From the NCBI GenBank assembly GCA_003248125.1, contig QJXZ01000225.1, forward strand, positions 1-41,322: DNA of 41,322 bases, given 5' to 3'. This document shows, one piece after another, positions 15,151-20,956 of this stretch. Below the pieces are notes generated by a model. The model saw nothing but the letters and a program-made list of their open reading frames with translations. It did not search any database and was not told the origin of the DNA. Position numbers and translations under genes: made by a program. Source of the DNA: Gammaproteobacteria bacterium. GTDB taxonomy: Bacteria > Pseudomonadota > Gammaproteobacteria > Pseudomonadales > Azotimanducaceae. Each line of letters begins with the position of its first letter. Position 1 is the stretch's first letter.

Positions 15151-15241
15151 GAAATACGCCTTCCTTCTGAACCGTGGGGAGCCACCTCATGGTAGTGGCT
15201 TTTGTGCCACAATGCCCGCTCTCCCCTCGACCGCCTCGAAT

Positions 15242-15769
15242 ATGCGTTCGCTGTTCATAGTCTTCGCCAACATCTGTTTGTTGCGTCGTGGCCCCGAACT
15301 GGTGCCGACGCTGCCTTGGTTCGTCGCGGCGGTCGCGATCCTCAACTTCGCCGCGAGCTTTGCAGTTTCCAATCACCTTGGTGCATCGATCTCAGCCGCG
15401 GCGCTTGCGAGCTCGCTGTTGGTAACGATGGCAACACTCGCTGCGGTGTCGTGGACCGCGCTCTATCTGCGAGGCAAAGATGGGCGCTTTCCCGCAACCA
15501 TCACCGCGATGTTCGGCTGCGACCTCATCCTCACTGTACTGGTGGGTGTGACGATGCTGGCGGTGGGCGGTGTCGGCACGCCGGTAGGACAAGGTGTGCT
15601 CGCCTTGGTCGGGATCTGGTCGATCGCCATCAATGGTTTCATCCTGCATCGGGCGATGGAGGTGTCGGTGTGGATCGGCATCGTCGTCGCATTCGGCATG
15701 GCGCTGTTCGCATTCATGCTCTCGAATGCCGCGGTCGGCCCAGCGCTGGCACCCACCCCACAGGCATGA
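15242..15769 (+). CDS. Small multi-pass membrane protein upstream of mpl
   Basis: I do not recognise a family with confidence; the pattern is loosely Yip1-like. It has four or five hydrophobic segments: LVPTLPWFVAAVAILNFAAS, the ALASSLLVTMATLAAVSW region, FGCDLILTVLVGVTMLAVG, and two C-terminal ones (GVLALVGIWSIAINGFIL; IGIVVAFGMALFAFML). ATG 15242 gives 175 residues starting MRSLFIVFANICLL. ATG 15212 would add ten residues. Neither has a good ribosome binding site. The stop overlaps the mpl start as ATGA, so the two genes are coupled, which hints at an envelope role but does not prove one. Confidence 0.75.
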   Translation: MRSLFIVFANICLLRRGPELVPTLPWFVAAVAILNFAASFAVSNHLGASISAAALASSLLVTMATLAAVSWTALYLRGKDGRFPATITAMFGCDLILTVLVGVTMLAVGGVGTPVGQGVLALVGIWSIAINGFILHRAMEVSVWIGIVVAFGMALFAFMLSNAAVGPALAPTPQA

Positions 15770-17199
15770 CCACCAGGCAACGCCACATCTACATCCTCGG
15801 CATCGGCGGGACGCTGATGGGCAGCATCGCCATGCTCGCAAAGGAAGCGGGCCTGAAGGTCACTGGGTCGGACAAGCGCCTCTATCCGCCGATGAGCACG
15901 CAGCTCGCGGATGCCGGTATCGAGGCATTCGAGGGCTTCACACCGGCACATCTCGATCCAGCGCCAGATCTGGTCATCATCGGCAACGCGGGGCTGCCGC
16001 GCGGTCACCCGGGCGTGGAAGCCGTGCTGCGCTCGGGATTACCGTACACCTCTGGCGCCGAATGGCTCGGCCGCGACATATTGCCGGGTCGCTGGGTGCT
16101 AGCCGTTGCGGGCACGCACGGCAAAACCACCACGGCGAGCATGCTTGCCTACGTTCTCGATCAAGCGGGGCTCGCCCCCGGTTTCCTGATCGGTGGCGTA
16201 CCGAAGGACTTCCCACGTTCGGCGCGGCTCGGCAGCACGTCATTCTTCGTGATCGAAGCCGACGAATACGACACGTCCTACTTCGATCGGCGCTCTAAGT
16301 TCGTGCACTACCGGCCGCGGACGCTGGTGATCAACAACCTCGAATACGACCACGCCGACATCTTTCCCGATCTTGCGGCAATTCAGACGCAGTTCCACCA
16401 CTTGCTCCGAACCGTGCCAGACAACGGCCTCGTGATCGCACCGGAGCACGACGAAGCAGTCGAGCAAGTGCTACGCATGGGCTGTTGGACGCCTGTTGCG
16501 CGGGTCCGCCTCGGTCGAAAACGACTACGTAAAGCCAATGTGGTCGGCGCGGCGACCGATGATGTCTGGCGCGTCAAGGATGCAGCCGCCGATGGCACGT
16601 CGTTCAAAGTGCAGCTGAACGATTCGGTACTCGGCACCGTCAGGTGGACGTTGACCGGTGAGCACAACGTCGCGAACGCGCTGAGCGCAATCGCCGCGGC
16701 TCGGCATGCCGGCGTACCGCCCGAAGTTGCGATCGATACGCTGTGCCGCTTCAGCGGCGTTACCCGGCGCATGGATCAATACGCCACCATCGGTGATGTC
16801 AAGCTGTACGACGACTTCGCCCATCATCCAACCGCGATTCGCACCACACTGCAGGGCCTACGCAACAAAGTGGGCGGCGAAGAAATCGTCGCGGTCATCG
16901 AACCACGTTCGCACACCATGTCGCTCGGCACGTTGCGCAGCGAGCTCACCAACTGCTGCGCGGCAGCGGACTGCGTGTATTGGTTCCGCGGTGAGAACAT
17001 CAAATGGGATCTGGCCGAGATCGTGCACGAGAGCGTGGTGCCCGCGCACCTGCACGACGATCTCGACCGGCTCGTAGCCGCGCTCACGAATTTGCCGCCG
17101 CCGAAGACCGCCCGCCACATCGTGATCATGTCGAATGGCGGATTCGGCGGCATTCACCGCAAGTTGGCGGCGTCGCTGCAAGCTGCCGGACGCCGATAA
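15766..17199 (+). CDS. mpl: UDP-MurNAc:L-alanyl-gamma-D-glutamyl-meso-DAP ligase
   Basis: Murein-recycling ligase that attaches the salvaged tripeptide to UDP-MurNAc in the cytosol. At 477 residues it is a Mur-ligase of usual length. The N-terminal domain has ILGIGGTLMGSIAMLAKEAG. The ATP loop is AGTHGKTTTASMLAYVLDQA. Central residues include EADEYDTSYFDRRSKFVHY and INNLEYDHADIF. The C-terminal domain has YDDFAHHPTAI. The ATG overlaps the stop of the membrane-protein gene (ATGA). The frame is open further upstream, but that part is antisense-like and not coding in this frame. Confidence 0.95.
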   Translation: MTTRQRHIYILGIGGTLMGSIAMLAKEAGLKVTGSDKRLYPPMSTQLADAGIEAFEGFTPAHLDPAPDLVIIGNAGLPRGHPGVEAVLRSGLPYTSGAEWLGRDILPGRWVLAVAGTHGKTTTASMLAYVLDQAGLAPGFLIGGVPKDFPRSARLGSTSFFVIEADEYDTSYFDRRSKFVHYRPRTLVINNLEYDHADIFPDLAAIQTQFHHLLRTVPDNGLVIAPEHDEAVEQVLRMGCWTPVARVRLGRKRLRKANVVGAATDDVWRVKDAAADGTSFKVQLNDSVLGTVRWTLTGEHNVANALSAIAAARHAGVPPEVAIDTLCRFSGVTRRMDQYATIGDVKLYDDFAHHPTAIRTTLQGLRNKVGGEEIVAVIEPRSHTMSLGTLRSELTNCCAAADCVYWFRGENIKWDLAEIVHESVVPAHLHDDLDRLVAALTNLPPPKTARHIVIMSNGGFGGIHRKLAASLQAAGRR

Positions 17200-17284: not shown

Positions 17285-18211
17285 ATGAAACATTGGGCCT
17301 TGGTGCTGGCAGCCGTCATCGCCGCAACCGCGCATGGCGCCGATTGGTATCCGTCACGCTATGGTGCGGACGACACCCTGGGCGCCATCAACAACCTGTC
17401 ACCCGAGGCGGTCGTGAAGGCGGCACAGTTGGTGAAGACGGGTAAGACCTATCCGTTGGGCGTCGTCACGGGGCGCGACACACCCGCCTATCCGCCGCGA
17501 CAATATGCGCTCACCGTTCTGCAACCCGGCGACGGCACCGGTCAAACCCTCGGCACGAACAGGGCCACCGGCAATGACGATCTGCTGTACACCTGGTTGG
17601 GCATCGGCAGCCAAATCGACGGCCTCGGCCATCTCGGTACGGAACATCGCTTCTACAACGGCGTGCCTGCACAGGACTTCGTCACACCCACCGGACTCAC
17701 CAAATTCAACGTCGACGCATTGCCGCCGATGGTTGGTCGTGGCGTGCTGCTCGACATGGCGAAGCTGCGCGGCGAAGCCCTCGTGCCGGCAGGGACGGCA
17801 TTCAATCGGGCCGAGATCGATGCGGCTGCAAACGCAGCCGGCATCGCCATTGGCAAAGGCGACATCGTGCTCTTCCACACCGGGTGGCTGAACGTCGCCG
17901 ACAGCGATAAGCAGCAGTTCATGTCCGGCGAGCCGGGTCTCGGTGTCGAAGGTGCGGCGTATTTGGCCGGCTTGGGCGTAGTCGCGATCGGATCGGACAA
18001 CTGGGCGGTCGAGGTCATTCCACACGAGGATCCGGCACAGGCGTTTCCGGTGCACGTCGAACTACTCGCCAAGAACGGTGTGTACATTCTCGAGAACATG
18101 GATACCAGAGCGCTGGCAGCGGACAACGCGACGGCATTCTTGTTCGTGCTCGGTCAGCCGAGATTCGAGGGCTCCGTGCAGACAGTGATCAACCCGGTCG
18201 CCATTCGCTGA
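17285..18211 (+). CDS. Exported cyclase-family (kynurenine formamidase-like) hydrolase
   Basis: PF04199-type metal-dependent hydrolase. Members include arylformamidases and isatin hydrolases; the substrate here is unknown. The 308 residues begin with a signal peptide (MKHWALVLAAVIAATAHGAD), so it should act in the periplasm. Metal-site pattern: SQIDGLGHLGTEHRFYNG, with the Asp, His and YNG of the large-cyclase subgroup. DIVLFHTGWL and a C-terminal PVHVELLAKNGVYILENM follow. GGGAGGA lies four bases before the ATG, the best ribosome binding site in the region, suggesting this is the operon's first gene. The next gene starts two bases after its stop. Confidence 0.87.
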   Translation: MKHWALVLAAVIAATAHGADWYPSRYGADDTLGAINNLSPEAVVKAAQLVKTGKTYPLGVVTGRDTPAYPPRQYALTVLQPGDGTGQTLGTNRATGNDDLLYTWLGIGSQIDGLGHLGTEHRFYNGVPAQDFVTPTGLTKFNVDALPPMVGRGVLLDMAKLRGEALVPAGTAFNRAEIDAAANAAGIAIGKGDIVLFHTGWLNVADSDKQQFMSGEPGLGVEGAAYLAGLGVVAIGSDNWAVEVIPHEDPAQAFPVHVELLAKNGVYILENMDTRALAADNATAFLFVLGQPRFEGSVQTVINPVAIR

Positions 18212-18213
18212 CC

Positions 18214-19212
18214 GTGCTCGACCTGTTCGCCGACAATCGCGTGGCCATCGAATCACTGCTGCGCGCGAACGGCTGGATCGAAGACGGCGAGCGAATCGAG
18301 CAACTCGCCAAAGCCGGCGATGGCAACATGAATCGAACGCTGCGCGCGGATCTCGGCGAGCGCACGTTGATTCTCAAGCAATCGGTGCCGTTCGTTGCGA
18401 AGTATCCCGACATCGCGGCCCCCGCCGACCGCATATCGGTCGAAGCCGAGTTCTACCGTGCCTCCGCTACGGCTGCGGCCGTGGCGGCGCGCTTACCGAA
18501 GGTGATCGGTTTCGACGCTGACAATCGGTTGCTGGCGCTCGAGGACTTGGGTGTCGGCGCCGATTTCACCGATGCCTATCGCAACCGCAAGGCGGCAATC
18601 GAGTTGCGCGATGCCGCACCGGATTTGCTGCAATGGTTATCGGCGCTGCACGGAATCGAGAATCCGCCCCGCATTGCCAACCATGCGATGCGCACACTGA
18701 ACCACGAGCACATCTTCGATATCCCGTTTCGTACCGACAACGGTCTCGACCTCGATGCGCTGACACCAGGCCTGGCCGAACTCGCCCGCGCAGTGGCGCG
18801 CGACCGCGAGGTCGTCGGCCGCGTCCGCGCGCTAGGCGAAATCTATCTCGGCGATGCTGCGCACGAGTCGCGCGCAGTGCTCCTGCACGGCGATTTCTAT
18901 CCCGGGTCGTTTCTGCGCGCGGCAGACGGAACCGTGCGCATCATCGATCCCGAGTTCGGCTTCGTCGGAGTACCCGAGTTCGACATTGGTGTGTTCATCG
19001 CGCACCTGGCGTTCGCTCGGCTCGACGAAGTCGATGTGGATGGCCATTACCAACCACCGAACGGTTACTCGATCGTGCTTGCGCGGCAGTACGCCGCCGT
19101 CGAGGTATTGCGCCGGCTATTGGGCGTCGCGCAGCTGCCGCTCGAGGCCGACTTGCCGAGCAAACGCGCCTGGATCGACGCCGCCTGTCGAGCATTGAAG
19201 GCCCCTCGATGA
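18214..19212 (+). CDS. Methylthioribose-kinase-like phosphotransferase
   Basis: APH/ChoK-fold kinase closest in motif to 5-methylthioribose kinase (MtnK). The N-terminal GDGNMNRTLRADLG and ILKQSVPFVAKYP resemble the MtnK nucleotide site. The catalytic loop is LLHGDFYPGSFL (His225-Gly-Asp227) and the metal site IIDPEFGFVGVPEFDIG (Asp245), very like MtnK's DPEF motif. Its 332 residues are shorter than typical MtnK (about 400). The GTG start is two bases after the cyclase stop, and its stop overlaps the nucleoside hydrolase ATG (ATGA). Pairing with a nucleosidase suggests it phosphorylates the freed sugar, ribose or methylthioribose; the substrate is inferred. Confidence 0.8.
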   Translation: MLDLFADNRVAIESLLRANGWIEDGERIEQLAKAGDGNMNRTLRADLGERTLILKQSVPFVAKYPDIAAPADRISVEAEFYRASATAAAVAARLPKVIGFDADNRLLALEDLGVGADFTDAYRNRKAAIELRDAAPDLLQWLSALHGIENPPRIANHAMRTLNHEHIFDIPFRTDNGLDLDALTPGLAELARAVARDREVVGRVRALGEIYLGDAAHESRAVLLHGDFYPGSFLRAADGTVRIIDPEFGFVGVPEFDIGVFIAHLAFARLDEVDVDGHYQPPNGYSIVLARQYAAVEVLRRLLGVAQLPLEADLPSKRAWIDAACRALKAPR

Positions 19213-20102
19213 CGTTGCCGCTCTTGATCGACACCGACGTCGCGCTCGGCGTGATTCACGAAGGCCGGCCGCGCGACATCGACGATGGCTTCGCCATCAT
19301 CGAAGCGCTCAACCTCGAAGTGATCGATCTGCGTGCCGTCACCACCGTGTACGGCAACGCACCGCTCGCCGACACCGACCGCGTGGCGCGCGAAATCGTC
19401 GCGCTAAAGAATGCGAGCGTCGCAGTCGGCCGCGGTGCCGCCGAGGCGCTGCCGGAATCCGGCGCATTGCCGCCGCCGAACGACGCGGTCGAGGCGATGC
19501 GCACCGCAATCGACGATGGCGCGCGTCACATCGCCGCCATCGGGCCGCTGACCAACGTTGGGCTGTTGCTACACCACTACCCGGATTACGCGACCATCAT
19601 CGACGAGGTCGTGATCGTGGCCGGGCGCTCACCCGGACGCCAGTTCTTCATCGGCGACAAGGGACCGGTACGCGACTTCAATTTCGAAAACGACGTGCGC
19701 GCAGCCGAGATCTTGCTATCGTCCGGCGTGTCGGTGACGCTGGCCGGATTCGAATTGACATCGCAGGTGGTCGTTACCGAGTCCGATCTCGCGACCATAG
19801 CCGCACGCAATACGCCGATCGCCGAATACCTGCACCGCAACTCGATCGCGTGGCTGCGGCATTGGACCAAGTCGTTCCCTGCCGATGCCGGCTTCCATCC
19901 TTGGGACTCCGCGGCTATCGCGTGGCTAACGCATCCCGAATGGTTCATCGCGGAACGACGTAGCGCGAGGATCTCGCCGCCGGTGGGTAAGCGCCCGGCA
20001 TGGCTCGAGTGCTCTACCGGCGGCGCACTCACCTATCTCTCTGGATTCGCGCCCGGCGGCGCACCGGCATTCGTGCGGAGCATCGTCGACAACATCTTCT
20101 GA
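19209..20102 (+). CDS. Inosine-uridine-type nucleoside hydrolase
   Basis: It cleaves the N-glycosidic bond of ribonucleosides with a Ca2+-bound water. The start is LLIDTD (Asp8, Asp10). The usual compact DxDPGxDD is stretched: about ten extra residues precede IDDGFAI (Asp25, Asp26). TVYGNAPLADTDRVAREIV and IGPLTNVGLLL follow, and DFNFENDVRAAEILL corresponds to the NxxNDxEAA substrate motif. FHPWDSAAIAWL carries the C-terminal His and Asp. The ATG at 19209 overlaps the kinase stop, giving 297 residues, usual for the family. The frame is open upstream inside the kinase gene, but that part is not coding. Confidence 0.9.
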   Translation: MTLPLLIDTDVALGVIHEGRPRDIDDGFAIIEALNLEVIDLRAVTTVYGNAPLADTDRVAREIVALKNASVAVGRGAAEALPESGALPPPNDAVEAMRTAIDDGARHIAAIGPLTNVGLLLHHYPDYATIIDEVVIVAGRSPGRQFFIGDKGPVRDFNFENDVRAAEILLSSGVSVTLAGFELTSQVVVTESDLATIAARNTPIAEYLHRNSIAWLRHWTKSFPADAGFHPWDSAAIAWLTHPEWFIAERRSARISPPVGKRPAWLECSTGGALTYLSGFAPGGAPAFVRSIVDNIF

Positions 20103-20191: not shown

Positions 20192-20956
20192 ATGGCTCGA
20201 TTGGCAGGCAAGCGCATCGTCGTCACGGGGGCGGCCAGCGGCATCGGTCGGGCGAGCGCAGAACTCTTCACCAGCGAAGGCGCGCGTGTGCTCGCCGTCG
20301 ACCTGTCCGAGAACGTGGCAACCACCAAGGCCACGATCTGTCTCACCGCCGATGCCGCGGACGAGCCATCGGTTGCGCGCCTCGTGCGCCAGTGCGTGGA
20401 GGAATTCGGCGGCATCGACGGAATCTATGCCAATGCCGGCGTCAGCGGTGGTCGGACACCGCTCTTCGAGCTCTCCATCGAACAGTGGCAACGCACCCTC
20501 GCCGTGAATCTGATTGGCCCGTTTCTCGCCATCAAGCACGCCGCGCCTCATATGGTTCGTCAGGGTGGCGGTGCGATTCTGTGTACGGCTTCGGTTGCCG
20601 GTCTACGGGCCAATGCCGGCGGCGTCGACTACAGCGCGAGCAAAGCCGGCGTCGTGAGCCTCGTGCAGACCGTGAGTCATCAGCTCTACGGCAGCGGCGT
20701 GCGCATCAACGCGATTTGTCCGGGCCTCATCGAAACCGGGATGACCAAGCCCGTGTTCGATCGTGCGCGGGCGCGCGGAACCGACGATCGCATCGGTCAA
20801 CTCAATCCATTGAAACGTGCTGGGCAGCCGCAAGAGATTGCGCAGATGGCGGCTTTCTTGCTGTCCGACGACGCATCCTACGTGAATGGTCAGGCGATTG
20901 CGGTGGATGGCGGGCTGTCGGCGAGCCACCCCTTCGTGTACGTCTCGCGATCCTGA
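20192..20956 (+). CDS. Short-chain dehydrogenase/reductase (classical SDR)
   Basis: NAD(P)-dependent oxidoreductase; the substrate is unknown. The 254-residue protein shows the cofactor motif TGAASGIG (12-19), NAGV, the catalytic Ser in TASVAG, the YSASK pair (Tyr, Lys), and the PG motif ICPGLIETGM. The C-terminal YVNGQAIAVDGGLSA is typical. Ribosome binding site GGGGAGGAGG lies upstream of the ATG. It stands 90 bases after the nucleoside hydrolase and ends 21 bases before the convergent acyl-CoA dehydrogenase. Confidence 0.92.
   Translation: MARLAGKRIVVTGAASGIGRASAELFTSEGARVLAVDLSENVATTKATICLTADAADEPSVARLVRQCVEEFGGIDGIYANAGVSGGRTPLFELSIEQWQRTLAVNLIGPFLAIKHAAPHMVRQGGGAILCTASVAGLRANAGGVDYSASKAGVVSLVQTVSHQLYGSGVRINAICPGLIETGMTKPVFDRARARGTDDRIGQLNPLKRAGQPQEIAQMAAFLLSDDASYVNGQAIAVDGGLSASHPFVYVSRS

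Follow-up and report, generated by a model that had tools for sequence, protein, structure and literature searches.

Introduction

Among the described systems in which a ribose-type sugar is freed and then phosphorylated at position 1, the MtnN and MtnK enzymes and the DrdK-DrdI-DrdA set are those most readily compared with the locus considered here. In the available part of the report on Arabidopsis thaliana 5-methylthioribose (MTR) kinase, the Asp of the HGD motif holds O1 and O2 of the sugar, the first Arg of a twin arginine (RR) holds O2 and O3, and the DxE motif binds magnesium (PMC2194712); the excerpted text of a further source assigns the binding of the methylthio group to a Trp of the W-loop (PMC4702295). 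The locus lies in contig QJXZ01000225.1 of a gammaproteobacterium (assembly GCA_003248125.1), of which the whole stretch of 41,322 nucleotides that was analysed is called the window. It comprises K, a short MTR-kinase-like sugar kinase of the APH fold (18214..19212, + strand, GTG start, 332 residues), and H, a nucleoside hydrolase (NH; 19209..20102, + strand, ATG start, 297 residues). In K and H a known logic, that of a nucleosidase combined with a 1-kinase, occurs in a widespread and uncharacterised version, and the two genes probably form a two-step pair in which a nucleoside would be hydrolysed and its sugar then phosphorylated, a reading that we favour with moderate confidence. The pair is described in no title or abstract found in the open-licence PubMed Central literature.

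Linkage of the kinase and the hydrolase

Co-occurrence was evaluated in 58 genomes, namely that of the window and 57 relatives, by calling K above 200 bits, an H orthologue above 400 bits and an orthologue of C (the cyclase-type gene upstream of K, discussed below) above 490 bits. K is present in 13 of the 58 genomes, that of the window included, and absent from 45; a weak K-like match in genome G011 was left out of the K set as a true MTR kinase (MTRK), with 460.9 bits against TIGR01767, the MTRK equivalog. Eleven of the 13 K genomes have an H orthologue and G015 has a fragment of one; none of the 45 others has any, the best hydrolase there reaching 117.5 bits (Fisher p 1.5e-11, relatedness not corrected). 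The two genes stand side by side in 10 of the 13 (G000, G003, G004, G016, G017, G026, G028, G030, G031 and G034), and in G015 and G018 the contig ends at the K-H site. K is sparse in the phylum, being found at E 1e-40 in 1 of 398 genomes, the window's own, when the first few candidates per genome were scored (3-5 in the rows listed).

A scan of public genomes yielded at least 555 stretches encoding a relative of K, from which the 80 best loci were taken; cultured bacteria that carry K include Kriegella aquimaris and a Spirosoma strain. An NH lies within 600 bp of K in 39 of these 80 loci (28 in the order K-H, 5 in the order H-K and 6 divergent), which by their record titles come from Pseudomonadota, Bacteroidota, Planctomycetota, Myxococcota, Acidobacteriota and Hydrogenedentota. 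The gap is at most 20 nucleotides in 27 of the 33 same-strand pairs, and 14 of the 39 loci show a 4-nucleotide overlap, as in the window, where K and H share ATGA. The recurrence of the layout in relatives and in other phyla, together with the frequency of the overlap, argues against chance, and the fact that the two genes stay neighbours while their order and strand vary points to a functional link. The genes of the locus are individually ordinary, and K and H stand out among them as a robust pair. The idea of the first-pass annotation that a nucleosidase may feed an MtnK-like kinase gains support from this co-occurrence and adjacency across phyla, as well as from the O1-polarising HGD motif and the ribose-binding twin arginine kept in K.

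The kinase

The motifs of K are the G-loop (residues 35-40), K55-Q56, HGD (225-227), S232, DPEF (245-248, within the DPEFG stretch 245-249) and RR (300-301). With 65 residues fewer than the 397-residue MTR kinase chain 2olc, K agrees well with its first description as a DPEFG-bearing kinase about 70 residues short of MtnK. It matches Pfam PF01636 with 34.6 bits (cut-off 23.2), and none of the NCBIfam profiles is above cut-off for K, H or C; the score of K against TIGR01767 is 91.5 bits, below the cut-off of 275, so that it is not filed as an MTRK. All 72 aligned K members match TIGR01767, with a best E of 1.4e-40. In this alignment of 72 rows, 38 columns are invariant, including G35, G37, N38, M39, N40, K55, Q56, H225, G226, D227, S232, D245, E247, F248, R300 and R301, and a separate recount of the key residues in the 80 public loci found GxGN.N, K55, HGD, S232, D.EF and RR unchanged in all of them.

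MTR kinases are the best structural matches of the K model (predicted local distance difference test score, pLDDT, 96.7), with Z 33.6 and a root-mean-square deviation of 2.3 over 312 residues for 2pyw_B; PsiK (Z 29.5) and LxmK (Z 24.2) come next. To judge from its residues, K is predicted to work like an MTR kinase: it has in common with MtnK/MTRK (TIGR01767) and with their relative DrdK the fold, the GxGNxN loop, HGD, the catalytic-loop Ser, DxEF and the twin arginine. It differs from MtnK/MTRK in its shorter chain, in its score below the TIGR01767 cut-off, in its common neighbour, which is an NH or an ADP-ribosylglycohydrolase-type gene, and in the W-loop. The latter contains no Trp in the K of the window, which has Ala at the aligned column, and the column of the Trp of the G011 MTRK is occupied by Trp in none of the 80 K homologues. 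In 43 of the 80 a Trp is found nine positions earlier in the W-loop, 8 of these having one also two positions later, so that the pocket may differ within the K family.

The hydrolase

The available part of PMC8910321 divides NHs into groups I and II and gives, for the purine-specific group II, a Trp immediately preceding the last calcium Asp, which is tied to purine stacking. H (PF01156, 127.5 bits, cut-off 34.2; residues D8, D10, D25, D26, Trp232 and D233) shares with RihA/RihC and with the group I and II NHs the fold, the calcium aspartates and the conserved Asn of the xFN motif, and D8, D10, D25, D26, N158 and D233 are invariant in the 37 K-linked hydrolases that were aligned. The group I feature, a His next to the last calcium Asp on its N-terminal side, is absent from H, which has instead the Trp of group II (W232-D233). 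At this position Trp or Phe is found in all 37 K-linked hydrolases, and His in six of nine unlinked hydrolase loci (L136-L144), the residue being not resolved in L136 and unreadable in two. Other group II features were sought in vain. Residues 70-95 of H, where we placed the β3-α3 loop from the predicted structure, do not hold the second Trp, and this presumed loop also lacks His, which is a further difference from the known groups. Group II has two extra helices between β3 and β4; in H the prediction places a single helix, 92-102, in the interval from strand 72-75 to strand 107-110 (our strand numbering). The best structural match of H is RihA (E 8e-21), the top matches are RihA-type, and no group II enzyme was recognised among the 50 structural matches listed, which does not by itself exclude kinship. 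Given these missing group II features and the RihA-type structural matches, the group II Trp makes us only lean towards a purine base as the preference of H.

The stretched DTD...DD motif noticed initially is also real: 14 residues separate D10 from D25, as opposed to three in six unlinked hydrolases of relatives (DPG.DD type) and between the calcium aspartates of the known NHs. The length of this loop varies by lineage, being short in five Saprospiraceae-type rows, and the stretched loop is therefore not what defines the K-H pair; it is also seen in the L136 hydrolase, which comes from a genome without K.

Proposed reactions and fate of the product

By taking into account family membership, co-occurrence, adjacency, catalytic residues and predicted fold, we infer the following activities. 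H would split the N-glycosidic bond of a nucleoside in a calcium-dependent reaction, yielding a ribose-type sugar, and K would use ATP to phosphorylate the freed sugar, most likely at the anomeric O1, giving a product of the ribose 1-phosphate type. O1 is proposed because the MTR kinase residues that hold O1 and O2 (HGD) and O2 and O3 (the first Arg of RR) are kept. H and K together would put two irreversible steps in place of the reversible nucleoside phosphorylase reaction. A more specific and tentative version, which we hold to be possible rather than probable, is that K is an O1 kinase for plain or 5-modified D-ribose, serving an ATP-driven phosphorylase bypass in at least six phyla, with two unrelated families of riboside hydrolase, NH and the ADP-ribosylglycohydrolase type, exchanged as the partner that releases the sugar.

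The product of K might be processed by MtnA and a class-II-aldolase-like enzyme, the MtnA gene of the window's genome lying elsewhere and following a class-II-aldolase-like gene. Of 12 stretches retrieved around the MtnA cluster, 7 show this neighbour pair; in the three that were family-tested (L168, which is the window's own genome, and L172 and L174 from relatives), MtnA scores above the equivalog cut-off, while the aldolase-like gene reaches no curated cut-off. In L168, TauD-like and cystathionine-synthase-like genes are found close to the pair.

The presence of MtnA brings in a different assignment, namely that H and K salvage 5'-methylthioadenosine (MTA) or 5'-deoxyadenosine, H freeing MTR or 5-deoxyribose and K making the 1-phosphate, with MtnA and the class-II-aldolase-like enzyme finishing the route in the manner of a dihydroxyacetone phosphate (DHAP) shunt. 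MtnN, the nucleosidase of the MtnN and MtnK route, belongs to a fold class other than that of H. The MtnA and aldolase-like neighbours speak for such a salvage, as do the presence of PF01008 in 12 of the 13 K genomes and the finding, in the accessible portion of PMC6079011, that DrdK, the MTR kinase relative, acts on both 5-deoxyribose and MTR. PF01008 is, however, also present in 27 of the 45 genomes without K (p 0.04, a weak difference with relatedness not corrected); the W-loop of K in the window has no Trp for the methylthio group; the K-H pair is next to neither mtnA nor the aldolase-like gene, a difference from the MtnN and MtnK and the DrdK-DrdI-DrdA systems; and all 13 K genomes keep a PF01048 phosphorylase/nucleosidase-type gene, the usual first enzyme class of this salvage. 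We therefore regard MTA or 5'-deoxyadenosine salvage as unlikely. Since the PF01048 class, which cleaves MTA, is present throughout, it is not evident either that K and H supply steps lacking from methionine salvage, and that candidate is not supported. The search for mtnA-like genes suggested at the outset was successful in that mtnA is present elsewhere in the genome.

As for ribokinase, some match exists in 57 of the 58 genomes, and three pass the cut-off, among K genomes only that of G005; the best ribokinase-like match of the window's genome has 220.7 bits against a cut-off of 299.65. This is suggestive of a replacement of ribokinase by K, which the weaker ribokinase-like matches make no more than possible.

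Other partners of the kinase

Returning to the two-step reading of K and H, the genes that adjoin K in the 80 public loci are not only NHs. An ADP-ribosylglycohydrolase-family gene, such as that of Flexithrix dorotheae, adjoins K in 13 of the 80 (L106 and L057 by Pfam, 11 by BLAST cluster), a PMI-type isomerase in 5 (L046, L052, L054, L058 and L069, with L058 tested), a GH113-type gene in 2 (both tested), a transaldolase in 1 (tested), and a DUF547 gene with no hydrolase in 2 (L089 tested). The PMI-type neighbours in L046, L052, L054 and L058 belong to Gemmatimonadota and Latescibacterota. In a quick tree of K, the partner labels are clustered and change repeatedly, with 19 changes for four labels over 81 rows, compared with a mean of 35.6 after shuffling.

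In four Bacteroidota loci (L084, L087, L100 and L103) the H-K genes follow those of an ABC importer, in the order binding protein, two permeases and ATPase. The importer, which has a binding protein of the PRK11622 type, was family-tested in L100 and assigned by cluster in L084, L087 and L103; SusC/SusD-like genes were recognised by eye near H-K in these four loci and in L114, a fifth Bacteroidota locus. A possible interpretation is that the Bacteroidota arrangement is an operon for nucleoside uptake plus processing.

The occurrence of certain markers near K in some distant loci led us to pursue a role in arsenosugar synthesis, in which H would strip adenine from the ArsS product and K would activate the arsenic-bearing ribose. 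In 10 of the 80 loci, genes of the TIGR04282, TIGR04283 and DUF547 clusters are found no more than 10 kb from K, 6 of these loci having at least two of the three, and L089 has an ArsS-like gene as well; the markers were assigned by BLAST cluster, with the pair in L102 passing the NCBIfam cut-offs and L100 and L114 below that of TIGR04282. Against this, 16 of the 45 genomes lacking K have an ArsS (TIGR04167) above the cut-off and none of the 13 K genomes does, which leads us to reject the role for the lineage of the window and makes it highly improbable overall, while in other lineages it could apply. As ArsS queries, L153 and L165 alone were used, at least L156, L160 and L167 being other long frames. 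Searches on arsenosugars in the open-licence PubMed Central literature found no paper. Loci with K within 10 kb of these marker clusters occur in several phyla (L065, L073, L089, L098, L102 and L104).

In weighing the proposal that H and K hydrolyse a nucleoside and phosphorylate its sugar, the sugar enzymes among the neighbours of K (PMI-type, GH113, transaldolase) were counted in its favour. Several observations count against it. The PMI-type and GH113 neighbours could also indicate a hexose substrate in some lineages, and 18 of the 80 K loci, some at contig ends, have none of the partner types sought. The 80-locus sample leans towards the query, being made of best-scoring picks, and at least 7 of its loci are contigs already among the 58 genomes. 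G005 has K and C and a ribokinase over the cut-off but lacks an H orthologue, the hydrolase that it does have reaching 81 bits, and in the K of G034, outside the 80-locus sample, Gln replaces H225 to give QGD. According to the portion of PMC6079011 at hand, DrdK is inactive on ribose. Finally, a search for DeoB found nothing in 12 of the 13 K genomes, that of the window included, and a partial match below the cut-off in G028, other mutase families not having been searched, so that the standard fate of ribose 1-phosphate is not evident.

The cyclase and the surroundings of the pair

C, a predicted exported PF04199 cyclase-type hydrolase (76.1 bits, cut-off 23.1), is encoded at 17285..18211 (+ strand, ATG start, 308 residues), and its N-terminus is hydrophobic and signal-like by eye. 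Its stop is separated by a 2-nucleotide gap from the start of K; the three genes in a row with a two-base gap and an ATGA overlap, as first reported, are therefore confirmed at 17285-18211, 18214-19212 and 19209-20102. HxxxHxD is the canonical metal motif of the KynB-type members of PF04199. C is without it and has G106...Q110-I-D112...H116, invariant in 8 of 8 aligned sequences; the nearest solved relative by sequence, 5ibz ('Uncharacterized protein', PF04199, E 1e-30), has the Q-x-D-x3-H in common with C, which itself is linked to K only facultatively.

The first-pass annotation saw in the three genes a candidate operon for nucleoside salvage, in which the exported cyclase could process the base or a related amide. 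In 8 of the 13 K genomes C immediately precedes K, and in 13 of the 80 public loci the two are neighbours, which would fit such a pathway, and C and K may be co-transcribed in the window. However, C is found away from K in 4 of the 13 K genomes (G016, G018, G026 and G031), no orthologue above 490 bits was found in G017, and C occurs in nine genomes without K (G006, G010, G011, G012, G013, G020, G021, G032 and G036). G021 has the order Mpl-C-SDR-acyl-CoA dehydrogenase with no K-H in between, and in G032, also without K, C sits between Mpl-type and acyl-CoA-dehydrogenase-type genes; conversely, K-H is found with no adjoining C in G016, G017, G026 and G031. Neighbourhoods of C were inspected in 7 of 13 stretches, those in which C was marked in the set of frames selected. 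C forms a module of its own and is not part of the conserved K-H pair, and because C and K-H are gained and lost independently the three-gene pathway was rejected: it is largely refuted and we consider it very unlikely. The proposed survey of gene order thus upheld the unity of K and H and, by finding C separated from them in relatives, removed C from the scheme.

The block common to relatives runs ..., Mpl-like ligase, (C), K, H, (SDR), .... In the window, the Mpl-like Mur ligase frame (15202..17199, + strand, with the gene beginning inside the frame) is the upstream neighbour kept in relatives, and an SDR oxidoreductase (20192..20956, + strand) lies downstream; both are given as context only, and among the surroundings Pfam was applied to the SDR and to the C-terminal portion of Mpl. 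The SDR is often the next gene in relatives (clusters cl8/c4) and is also kept in L214, which is without K-H. Further out we take the genes, by their sequence, to encode a proton-pyrophosphatase-like protein, a pyrophosphate-dependent phosphofructokinase (PPi-PFK)-like protein and a small membrane protein upstream, and an acyl-CoA-dehydrogenase-like protein after the SDR. Contig CAMAVY010000074.1 (L086/L029) is titled Klebsiella pneumoniae and has a gene block matching that of the gammaproteobacterial relatives of the window; it is probably a mis-titled metagenome bin.

Conclusions

The K family, with its at least 555 encoding stretches, combines conserved catalytic residues with neighbours that are often sugar-releasing. 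Knowing the function of K would assign a function to many genes that fall here below every curated family cut-off. If the two-step reading of K and H is true, bacteria would be able to convert nucleosides irreversibly into sugar 1-phosphates at the expense of ATP.

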